In this document: positions 7,554 through 59,185 of the stretch, piece after piece
Numbering within the stretch: position 1 is the stretch's first letter
Layout of the letters: the number at the start of each line of letters is the position of its first letter
Assembly: GCA_016183065.1 (NCBI GenBank)
Contig: JACPFF010000004.1
Coordinates: 62,001-126,000, forward strand
Length of the DNA stretch: 64,000 nucleotides
DNA from: Deltaproteobacteria bacterium
GTDB lineage: Bacteria > UBA10199 > GCA-002796325 > JACPFF01
Reading direction: 5' to 3'
Position numbers and translations under genes: made by a program
Notes under the pieces: model-generated
What the model saw: the letters and a program-made list of their open reading frames with translations, nothing else
Told to the model about the DNA's origin: nothing
Databases searched by the model: none

Positions 7554-7604
7554 TGATCGGGGCATGACGACCGGCAATAGCGATTGCCTTTCAGCGCAAC
7601 CATT

Positions 7605-7808
7605 ACAGGGGCTCACGTCGCCCCCCCAACGGGCAAAGCCCGTTGGGTCCCCCCTTCTCGCGCGCGGTGCGCGCTGGGGGACTTCCTCGTCCACCCAGCT
7701 TCGCTGGGTCCCCGGACTCGGTCGTTGCCACTACCCCCCCAACGGGCAAAGCCCGTTGGGTCCCCCCCTTCTCGCGCGCGGTGCGCGCTGGGTCGTGGGG
7801 CCCCACTT
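7605..7808. repeat. Modular palindromic repeat, copy A (two linked units)
   Basis: Starts with the family leader ATTACAGGGGCTCACGT. It then has a hairpin with arms CCCAACGGGC and GCCCGTTGGG around AAA, a GCGCGC-GGT-GCGCGC hairpin, and GGACTTCCTCGTCCACC with a small CCAGC-TTC-GCTGG stem. The CCCAACGGGC hairpin and the GCGCGC module then appear a second time and end in TGGGGCCCCA. It fills the gap between the C25 protease and the TSUP permease and has no credible ORF. Confidence 0.9.
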
Positions 7809-14739: not shown

Positions 14740-15182
14740 GAGACCTCCTTGATGGAGTGGAGTGTATGCAGAGCGCGTGCCAAGGTCGTCAGAGGCATCA
14801 GGCGCGGTCCGCACGTCTCACGGGGTTTGTACAATGAACGATCGCAGGACAGTCGTGATGCAAAGTCCGTCAGGAGTGACGAAGGGGTGGACACTATTGG
14901 AGGGGCTCACGTCGCCCCCTCCACCGGCAAAGCCGGTGGAGCCTCCCCCTCTCGCGCGCGGTGCGCGCTGGGGGACTTCCTCGTCCACCCGCTTTGCGGG
15001 TGCCCGGACTCGGTCGTCGCCACCGCCCCCCCAACGGGCACAGCCCGTTGGGCCCCACCAAAGCGCGCCCAACATATTGTGTTGCATGTGATCGTTGTAA
15101 TTTATTGAAATACATGGCAAAAAATCATTCAGCCGACTTTCCTTCGCTGGCGTTCCCAGGATACGGTATACTTAGGGGTACG
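14740..15182. other. Intergenic region containing repeat copy B
   Basis: 443 bases between divergent genes. The first 150 bases are unique sequence. Repeat copy B fills about 14890-15073, and the last 110 bases before the histidine kinase are AT-richer and probably carry its promoter. Confidence 0.6.
14890..15073. repeat. Modular palindromic repeat, copy B
   Basis: Leader ATTGGAGGGGCTCACGT. A hairpin follows with arms CTCCACCGGC and GCCGGTGGAG around AAA, then a GCGCGC-GGT-GCGCGC module and GGACTTCCTCGTCCACC. Next is a CACCCGC-TTT-GCGGGTG stem, then CGGACTCGGTCGTCGCCAC and a second hairpin with arms CCCAACGGGC and GCCCGTTGGG around ACA. Compared with copy A the first stem sequence is different yet still complementary. 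Confidence 0.9.
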
Positions 15183-27562: not shown

Positions 27563-28711
27563 ATGCGACGTGATTTGCGCGATCTCCCGGTTGGGGAATT
27601 GGCCGGTGTTGCCGAGGCCGCAGGGCTGAAGGCCTATGGGGCCAGGCAGCTCTATGACTGGCTCTACCGGCAGGGGGCGACGAGCTTTGAGGCCATGACC
27701 AATCTGTCGGCCACGGTGCGTGCGCGGTTGGCTGAAGCCTACGATCTGCGCACGATGGTCCCTTCGACCACCCAAGAGGCCCGCGACGGGACGACAAAGC
27801 TCCTCTTTAGACTTGATACCTCAAGACCGCCGCAGGCGGTCAGCGAGCACCGCGAGCGAGAAGGGGAGGCTCCACCGGCTTTGCCGGTGGAGGGGGCGAC
27901 GCGAGCCCCTCAGATCGAAACGGTGGTCATCCCGGCCAATCGCCGTGATCACAGCCCACGGCGCACGCTCTGTATCTCGACGCAGGCGGGGTGCGCCATG
28001 GGATGCACCTTCTGTCACACCGGGACTATGGGGTTGGTACGGCAGCTCACGCAGGGAGAGATCCTCGGACAGATCTTGGCCGCACGGGCGATGCTTGCAG
28101 GACGTGGCGAGGCGCTGACGAACATTGTCTTGATGGGGATGGGTGAACCCCTCCATAATTATGAACAGACCGTGGCCGCGGTGCGGATCATGATCGACGA
28201 CCGCGGACTCGGCTTTGGCAAACGCCGCGTCACGCTCTCCACCGTGGGGCTTGCTCCGGCGATCCGGCGGCTGGCTGACGAACAACTCGGGACCAAGCTC
28301 GCGCTCTCGCTCCATGCCACGACCGACGAGCAACGGCAGGCCTTGATCCCCATGGCCCGCAAGTATCCATTACGCGAGGTCCTCGATGCGTGTCACTATT
28401 ATTGTCGCCGCCAAACCCATCGCGATGCGCGCGTGACCTTCGAATATGTATTGTTGCGCGGCGTGAACGATCTCCCGGACGATGCACACCGGTTGGTACG
28501 GATCGCGTCGCACCTGCCGAGCAAAGTGAATCTCATCCCGTGGAATCCCTATCCGGGGGCTCGATGGGAGCGACCGGAAGAGACGCGTATCGGGCGTTTT
28601 GCGGAGCTCTTGCAATCGAGCGGGATTCAGGTCAATACCCGGATCAGCCGCGGACAGGAGATCCTGGCCGCATGTGGGCAGTTGGCGGTGGGCCCAGCGC
28701 GGCCTGAATGA
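27563..28711 (+). CDS. rlmN: 23S rRNA/tRNA adenine-C2 methyltransferase RlmN, carrying an in-frame repeat
   Basis: 382 residues. Radical-SAM enzyme that methylates A2503 of 23S rRNA and A37 of some tRNAs. The Fe-S cluster motif C-x3-C-x2-C is at C144, C148 and C151 (GCAMGCTFC). The GMGEPL segment and the C-terminal methyl-carrying cysteine in ILAACGQL (C371) are present, so the active site looks intact. Residues 86-117 do not belong to the family: normal RlmN goes from LLF-x-L almost directly to IETV. This insert is encoded by repeat copy C. It starts 184 bases after ychF and is followed by the MTA phosphorylase. Confidence 0.93.
   Translation: MRRDLRDLPVGELAGVAEAAGLKAYGARQLYDWLYRQGATSFEAMTNLSATVRARLAEAYDLRTMVPSTTQEARDGTTKLLFRLDTSRPPQAVSEHREREGEAPPALPVEGATRAPQIETVVIPANRRDHSPRRTLCISTQAGCAMGCTFCHTGTMGLVRQLTQGEILGQILAARAMLAGRGEALTNIVLMGMGEPLHNYEQTVAAVRIMIDDRGLGFGKRRVTLSTVGLAPAIRRLADEQLGTKLALSLHATTDEQRQALIPMARKYPLREVLDACHYYCRRQTHRDARVTFEYVLLRGVNDLPDDAHRLVRIASHLPSKVNLIPWNPYPGARWERPEETRIGRFAELLQSSGIQVNTRISRGQEILAACGQLAVGPARPE
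27818..27913. repeat. Modular palindromic repeat, copy C, inside rlmN coding sequence
   Basis: In reverse orientation it matches the family: AGGGGCTCGCGTCGCCCCC, then a hairpin with arms CTCCACCGGC and GCCGGTGGAG around AAA, then CCTCCCC and the TCGCTCGCGGTGCTCGCT module. A second small hairpin (GACCGCC-GCA-GGCGGTC) sits at its left. The insert is 96 bases, a multiple of three, and adds 32 codons with no stop. Its frame reads REREGEAPPALPVEGAT. Confidence 0.92.
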
Positions 28712-38198: not shown

Positions 38199-38297
38199 AT
38201 TACAGGGGGCTCACGTCGCCCCCCTCCAGTGGCAAAGCCACTGGAGCTTCCCCCCTCACGCTCGCGGTGCTCGCTGGGGGGCTTCCCACGGGCGACG
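38199..38297. repeat. Modular palindromic repeat, copy D
   Basis: Leader ATTACAGGGGGCTCACGT, then a hairpin with arms CTCCAGTGGC and GCCACTGGAG around AAA, then a CTCGCGGTGCTCGCTGGGG module. The stem sequence is unique among the copies here yet fully complementary. It sits in the 180-base gap between a small gene and the aminotransferase start and would be in the 5' leader of the latter. Confidence 0.9.
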
Positions 38298-38326
38298 GGA
38301 GTCTGTCGATCCATTCCGCCATCGTA

Positions 38327-46272: not shown

Positions 46273-46315
46273 GAGTGAGTTATTCTAAGGGAGAACACCG
46301 ATCGTGTCAATTTCC

Positions 46316-46800
46316 ACCATTGGAGGGGCTCACGTACCCTGCAGCGAAGCCTTCGGGTACTTCCTCGTCCACCCGCTTCGTGGGTCCCCGGACTCGGTCG
46401 TTGCCACTATTACAGGGGCTCACGTCGCCCCCTCCAGCGGCAAAGCCGCTGGAGCCTCCCCTTCAACGCCGCGGTGCGGCTGGGTCGTGGGGCCCCGGAC
46501 GTCAGTCCGGGGGGGTCGTGCTCCGGCGAAGCCTCCTCCCAGGGTGCCACGGGCGTGAGCCCGTGGGGCCCCACTGCGCCCCCCCCAACGGGCAAAGCCC
46601 GTTGGGTCCCCCCTCTCGCGCGCGCGGTGCGGCTGGGTCGTGGGGCCCCGGACGTCAGTCCGGGGGTGTCGTGCTCCGGCAAAGCCTCCTCCCAGGGTGC
46701 CACGGGCGTGAGCCCGTGGGGCCCCACTGCGCCCCCCCCCAACGGGCAAAGCCCGTTGGATCCCCCCTCTCCCGCGCGCGGGTCGTGGGGCCCCGCAAAA
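46316..46800. repeat. Palindromic repeat cluster, copy E (with 153-bp tandem duplication)
   Basis: Nearly 500 bases built only from repeat modules. Two leaders (ATTGGAGGGGCTCACGT and ATTACAGGGGCTCACGT) start subunits. Hairpins include a CTCCAGCGGC/GCCGCTGGAG stem, CCCCGGA/TCCGGGG, CACGGGC/GCCCGTG and two CCCAACGGGC/GCCCGTTGG stems. A segment starting GCGGTGCGGCTGGGTCGTGG near 46471 recurs at 46624, a direct tandem period of 153 bases with few differences. No credible gene; long open frames here are repeats translated. Confidence 0.9.
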
Positions 46801-58668: not shown

Positions 58669-59185
58669 CGGTCCAAGACGCCGAGGGAGGTGGTGTCGAG
58701 CGCTGGTGGCCACTATTGGAGGGGCTCGCGTACCCTCCGGCTCCGCCTGCGGGTACTTCCTCGTCCACCCGCTTCGCGGGTGCCCGGACTCTGTCGTCGC
58801 CACACCCCCCTCCAGCGGCAAAGCCGGGTCAAGGCCCAGCTGTGCTGGGCCGCGAAGCACAGTCGAAGACTGTGCGGAGTGTGATGGAGCCTCCCCCGCA
58901 GCGCCGCAGTGCGGCTGGGCCGTGGGGCCCAGGACGTTAGTCCGGGGCCCCACGGCAGGAGGTGTTTTTGGTGCCAAGACTGGCTGCAACCGGGAGACCT
59001 GTGGCCGTGCGTCTGACCGGGGGCGGGATTGCCGGTGGAGAGTCGTGAAATGCTGTTGTGTTGTGCGCACCATGTATGTAACCCCTCGGAATCCTTGGGC
59101 AGTGTGTAAGCTATTTTTAGTTATATATAGCTAACACATAGAAGACAAGTCAACAAGTATCTTCGAGATGAGCGACTCTGCCTCG
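58669..59185. other. Intergenic region containing repeat copy F
   Basis: 517 bases. Repeat copy F covers most of the first half, to about 58955. The remaining 230 bases are unique and turn AT-rich near 59107-59150 (TATTTTTAGTTATATATAGC, with AGCTAT/ATAGCT inverted arms). No ORF stands out. Confidence 0.55.
58712..58955. repeat. Modular palindromic repeat, copy F, with nested insertion
   Basis: Leader ATTGGAGGGGCTCGCGTACCC, then a GTACCC/GGGTAC-bounded stem and the GGACTCTGTCGTCGCCAC module. The next hairpin (left arm CTCCAGCGGC) is broken after GCCG by about 58 extra bases, GGTCAAGG... to ...GTGTGA, then resumes TGGAGCCTCCCCC. The extra bases hold two hairpins of their own (GGCCCAGC/GCTGGGCC and GCACAGTC/GACTGTGC). 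Later modules include GCCGC-AGT-GCGGC and CCCAGGACGTTAGTCCGGGG. Confidence 0.88.

Follow-up and report, generated by a model that had tools for sequence, protein, structure and literature searches.

Palindromic repeats that are read as part of proteins were first described as unique to the endosymbiont Rickettsia, and scattered cases later came to light elsewhere. The Rickettsia palindromic elements (RPE) were reportedly described by Ogata in 2000 and 2002, and counterparts are said to exist in Wolbachia. RPE are short palindromes that lie between genes as well as in frame within unrelated conserved genes, where they encode a shared peptide (PMC10969869, PMC2229807), and their target-site duplication is given as '?' (PMC2229807, Table 1). 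The GTAG/CGTC REPs are likewise small and mostly intergenic, with some copies lying within genes and adding 20-30 aa; intragenic cases are known from Opitutus, Thauera, Xanthomonas and R. conorii (PMC3733652). Bacterial MITEs with ORFs form a third group, which includes the 107-bp Correia/NEMIS element, ERIC and RU-2/RU-3 (PMC2229807).

Here, we describe a repeat of comparable behaviour in an rlmN gene from an unrelated, uncultured lineage. The gene lies in a window of 64,000 nucleotides, by which we mean the whole stretch of DNA analysed. Its insert is, very probably, a copy of a dispersed, non-autonomous, class-restricted hairpin repeat that is translated as a tolerated, disordered surface loop. 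The features of the gene are as follows:

27563-28711, plus strand: rlmN, an rRNA/tRNA adenine-C2 methyltransferase gene with an in-frame repeat (TIGR00048, fold match, invariant Cys).
27818-27913, plus strand: the inserted stretch TSRPPQAVSEHREREGEAPPALPVEGATRAPQ, residues 86-117 (alignment against 109 RlmN, pLDDT).
27825-27841, plus strand: accessory hairpin GACCGCC-GCA-GGCGGTC on the 5' side of the insert, common to the copy at C29:1231-1315.
27841-27911, plus strand: repeat core of the palindromic family, in reverse orientation relative to 14900-14970 (94% match, class-wide family).
27870-27892, plus strand: perfect hairpin CTCCACCGGC-TTT-GCCGGTGGAG, its stem preserved through compensatory changes among 139 copies.

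The product is identified as RlmN by a family model search (TIGR00048, 360.9 bits; cut-off, 290), by a CxxxCxxC motif with a C-terminal Cys, and by a predicted model whose closest solved structures are RlmN 6fz6, 5hr7 and 3rf9. The gene is one open frame of 382 aa without a stop, and the radical-SAM cysteines C144, C148 and C151, which a first-pass annotation had called intact, are invariant in the alignment together with the C-terminal C371. Of the 109 other RlmN compared, 80 come from public genomes and 29 from the relatives searched; nearly all have a turn of five residues, x-D-G-x-x, between a Leu and I-E-[ST]-V, much as that annotation had pictured a normal RlmN. It had also counted 32 added residues: residues 86-117 are indeed inserted, but the L84-to-I118 spacing is 33 residues in this RlmN against 5 in relatives, a net gain over homologues of ~28. 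The insert peptide was found in 0/109 of the other RlmN, those of three same-order genomes (G002, G003, G004) included, and the expectation that relatives lack these residues held; the same-family genome G001 yielded no RlmN and so lies outside the comparison. No close relative offering an empty rlmN site at the DNA level was found, the nearest compared RlmN being ~53% identical.

A structure prediction built from 46 sequences gave a confident model (mean pLDDT 90, pTM 0.90), in which the insert falls between strands 78-83 and 117-125 and pLDDT is below 50 at residues 94-102. The insert is accordingly modelled as a disordered loop in the turn between two beta-strands, outside the fold core, in keeping with the exposed loop proposed earlier. 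From its reading frame, the insert would be translated as part of RlmN, with EGEAPPALPVEGATR as the peptide expected in the protein, and the predicted model and the kept catalytic residues suggest that the enzyme tolerates it. In Rickettsia, a repeat insertion in guanylate kinase altered substrate affinity (PMC2229807), and given this case some cost of the insert is possible. One might go further and regard rlmN as a gene under loss whose insert marks its decay; we hold this to be highly improbable, since the gene has no stops, keeps its catalytic residues and has a confident predicted fold, no second full-length RlmN was seen in this genome (G000), and the era, metG, leuS and typA homologues of relatives carry similar inserts. 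Misjoining of the repeat into rlmN during assembly also has to be weighed, as this draft genome, some 89% complete, is split over 30 contigs and repeats are apt to mislead assemblers. The kept frame, the position in a turn, the continuous rlmN flanks and the same pattern in many independent genomes make such an artefact scarcely credible.

The tolerated insert is one copy among many. Its core at 27841-27911 lines up with the reverse complement of the window copy at 14900-14970, at 94% identity over 71 nt, far beyond chance, and is 91-96% identical to numerous copies elsewhere in the genome. Across its 1.97 Mb, we counted 102 candidate places, 40 of which were scored, and most of these are strong matches. 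The closest full-length copy, on another contig (C29:1231-1315), is 94% identical over 85 nt and aligns to positions 8-92 of the rlmN insert query. Copies in this genome are mosaics with further palindromic modules, and those recognised by sequence match elsewhere in the window are:

7593-7800, minus strand: two adjoining family copies, 5' of a TauE/SafE-like gene.
14893-15059, minus strand: family copy upstream of a histidine kinase gene.
38200-38315, minus strand: family copy on the 5' side of a minus-strand aminotransferase gene.
46314-46800, minus strand: mosaic cluster of repeat modules.
58700-58900, minus strand: mosaic family copy.

At 46446-46751, within the cluster, repeat modules recur as a 153-bp tandem duplicate with 87% identity.

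The family element measures ~60-100 bp, with the core consensus GAGGGGGAGGCTCCACCGGCTTTGCCGGTGGAGGGGGCGACGCGAGCCCCTNNAATAG and, over 139 copies, the consensus GAGGGGGAGGCTCCACCGGCTTTGCCGGTGGAGGGGGCGACGCGAGCCCCTATAATAG. Its hairpin is maintained by compensatory changes: at one stem pair, the 139 copies include 68 C-G, 26 G-C and 12 A-T. The element end reads NNAATAG / CTATTNN; neither GTAG nor CGTC was met at the hairpin end, and no clear terminal inverted repeat was noticed in the copies inspected. The repeat core is present in 23/46 genomes of the class and the 60-nt consensus in 22/46, as opposed to 0/195 outside the class (241 genomes in all, surveyed as drafts), and the family spans 22 genera. 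Loci in the census were drawn from the best-scoring matches and do not form a random sample. A phage or plasmid route of spread was rejected, as no match to the family was found in phage records, plasmid records or viral contigs at the sensitivity used; a known RNA family was also rejected, the rlmN region being without an Rfam match.

A scan of other proteins recovered the same repeat in frame in many proteins of the genome and of the class. In TypA (G031), RNase R (G024), MetRS (G014), Era (G024), NadB (G031) and PBP1a (G019), the match to the family model extends across the insert. Pfam domains lie beside the insert or run through it in RecG and Mfd (G033), LeuRS (G034), an aldo-keto reductase, ADH, ArsS, a solute-binding protein and CinA. 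Many inserts are interdomain, as between the FAD and C-terminal domains of NadB, between CSD2 and RNB of RNase R, and before the tRNA-binding domain of MetRS. In a NuoM-type subunit, one particular loop holds the repeat in both G014 and G010 (L189, L255), which belong to different families, and is free of it in G007, G019 and G029, all of the same family as G014; the G007 sequence is 78% identical there. Two further occurrences are recorded as observations. A fatty-acid-synthase-like protein of this genome (contig C27, L025:3-3065), likewise with Pfam domains beside or across the inserts, has two separate in-frame copies in opposite orientations, and a phage capsid domain protein of G028 (L254:202-2187) has one in-frame copy, a possible route between hosts.

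Copies within genes are strongly biased in both strand and frame. Among loci of at most 57% G+C, in which chance seldom yields a long ORF, 37 copies lie within ORFs of at least 200 aa, 33 of them in sense and 4 in antisense (two-sided binomial ~1e-6); this stricter count supersedes a looser one of 35/39 in sense. Loci above 57% G+C were left out of the frame statistics, a long ORF there not being trusted as proof of coding. Copies outside genes showed no significant orientation bias (17 vs 9, p = 0.17). In 31 of the 33 sense copies, the right end is read as ...ATRAP, the other 2 being in another frame. Because the element end is open in two sense frames, this preference for one frame suggests selection acting on the peptide; insertion bias is a possible alternative source. 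The numbers also bear on the idea that the insert is present in the DNA yet missing from the protein, through ribosome bypass or removal from the mRNA. Known bypassing elements carry a strong hairpin within an ORF, as the rlmN insert does; a skipped insert would, however, be free to take any frame or length, whereas 31/33 sense copies keep to one open frame and insert lengths preserve the frame, and we put very little weight on skipping.

A translated, tolerated insert remains our preferred reading, under which a hairpin repeat would have entered the beta-hairpin turn of rlmN and, once translated, would form an extra disordered surface loop. Intragenic copies that survive would be those in sense that keep the frame, encode the hydrophilic peptide EGEAPxALPVEGATRAP and lie in loops or interdomain linkers, other intragenic insertions having presumably been mostly purged.

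Traces of insertion are preserved at part of the loci. Direct repeats of host sequence, 17-51 bp long, flank 11/139 copies (L215, L149, L154, L152, L002, L151, L164, L226, L150, L187 and L258), and none of that length arose in a control of 212 pairs, whose maximum score was 13. Flanking repeats at L240, L023 and L245 were not counted, since they fall within the element's own modules. In all 11 copies, the right duplicate begins 3-11 bp past the CCCCT element end. Parts of tRNA genes, 21-47 bp, are duplicated at L152, L154 and L164, with an intact tRNA remaining beside the element, and gene ends at L215 (rplL), L002, L226 and L150, where an intact end stays beside it. At L215 (G019, minus orientation), a stretch of ~51 bp from the 3' end of rplL recurs past the element, and the duplicates differ slightly. 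Filled and empty sites can be paired at three places: at L164, where G015 and G020 lack both the element and the second tRNA end; at L215, where the same-genus G007 lacks the element; and at the NuoM-type loop. L002, the copy most like that in rlmN, has a perfect 37-bp duplication, and the rlmN-like subfamily was therefore probably active not long ago. The flanking-repeat scan of the 139 copies found no target duplication at the rlmN copy itself, nor at nearly all other in-frame copies; duplication is therefore not obligatory or has been lost. Three claims of the first-pass annotation are supported: that a reverse-orientation repeat lies in frame inside rlmN; that the element is mobile-like, in view of the filled and empty sites and the flanking duplications; and that its sequence is fit for translation, in view of the strong bias to one sense frame.

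How the repeat moves is a harder matter. RAYT/Y1-type movement is a proposal made for GTAG REPs, and mobilisation of the repeat as a REP, by a RAYT or IS200-type (Y1) transposase, would agree with in-frame insertion. The repeat is a hairpin with a covarying stem, Y1_Tnp was found in 38/46 genomes of the class, and in this genome a RAYT-like Y1_Tnp gene (C2:1756-2076) has a repeat 1.15 kb off, while a TnpA fragment at C8:65820 runs into one. Yet Y1_Tnp matches are missing from four repeat-bearing genomes, G016 (98% complete), G034, G036 and G038, while the repeat-free G003, G044 and G041 are rich in them (8, 10 and 6, respectively). The element ends in ATAG/CTAT without a GTAG tag, and the RAYT-like gene has inverted repeats of its own, GGGTACGTCATAC. 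No target duplication is expected of IS200-type insertion, in conflict with the 17-51-bp duplications observed. We therefore consider a RAYT or Y1 mover unlikely; repeat load is uncorrelated with Y1_Tnp (PF01797), the sole mobiliser type searched.

Duplications of variable length are at odds both with the Y1 type and with a DDE transposase of fixed duplication length. Insertion may, instead, duplicate a target of 17-51 bp beside the fixed element end, leaving the tRNA or gene end intact, through an enzyme or repair process that would make variable staggered ends. We only tentatively attribute the movement to an enzyme or repair process of this kind, with somewhat more doubt than trust. Two loci of this genome merit separate mention: on contig C2 (L141:1290-2100), the RAYT-like gene lies between its inverted repeats and may belong to a TIR-type transposon, and on contig C8 (L142:1465-1881), the frame of an IS200-type TnpA fragment enters the repeat where the HUH motif is expected.

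Against the described systems, the family can be placed as follows. Like RPE, it consists of scattered palindromes joined in frame to conserved genes, the same repeat lying both between genes and within unrelated ones, and it has a preferred frame; the likeness to Rickettsia palindromic elements drawn earlier stands for behaviour, but not for membership. Unlike RPE, it is GC-rich, belongs to another lineage, extends class-wide over 22 genera and has 17-51-bp target duplications at some copies; among the 241 genomes it is confined to this class, rather than to Rickettsiales. On lineage and description, we regard it as a family separate from RPE. It resembles the GTAG/CGTC REPs as a small palindrome with some copies inside genes, but lacks their tag, does not track Y1 transposases and has flanking duplications, and no RAYT flanked by the repeat (a REPtron) was found. 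Like the MITEs, it consists of small non-autonomous repeats joined in frame to genes, but no terminal inverted repeat was noticed and the duplication is variable in length instead of short and fixed.

The general kind is not new, intragenic palindromes being already described in other bacteria. What sets this case apart is its lineage, the distribution of a single family across the class, the lack of a GTAG/CGTC tag and the length of the duplications. We see it as close to an even call, leaning slightly towards doubt, that this is an undescribed family that duplicates a 17-51-bp target beside a fixed end, can enter tRNA genes, operons and essential genes yet leave them whole, encodes a harmless loop peptide in one frame, and so amounts to a selfish element that is 'translation-ready', extends class-wide and lies outside Rickettsiales. 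A Rickettsia-like trait occurs, in any case, in an unrelated, uncultured lineage, with one family in dozens of conserved genes across the genera of a non-rickettsial class. Its copies offer a natural catalogue of core-enzyme sites that accept an insert of 20-35 residues, and the flanking duplications and empty sites provide a handle on palindrome insertion, which is listed as unknown for RPE.

The turn occupied in rlmN has been hit twice. An acidobacterial MAG (L096) has another palindrome, GTAGGGGCGGACC...GGTCCGCCCCTAC, in frame at this turn of its own RlmN; it is like the rlmN repeat in position, but its sequence is unrelated and the event independent. Because two different palindromes sit in frame at the same place, this turn of RlmN marks a permissive insertion site. 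The acidobacterial element (L096:10250-10327, JACQDE010000019.1) is a GTAG-type palindrome, and it recurs in its own genome with 17 matches, partial ones counted, some of them as halves.
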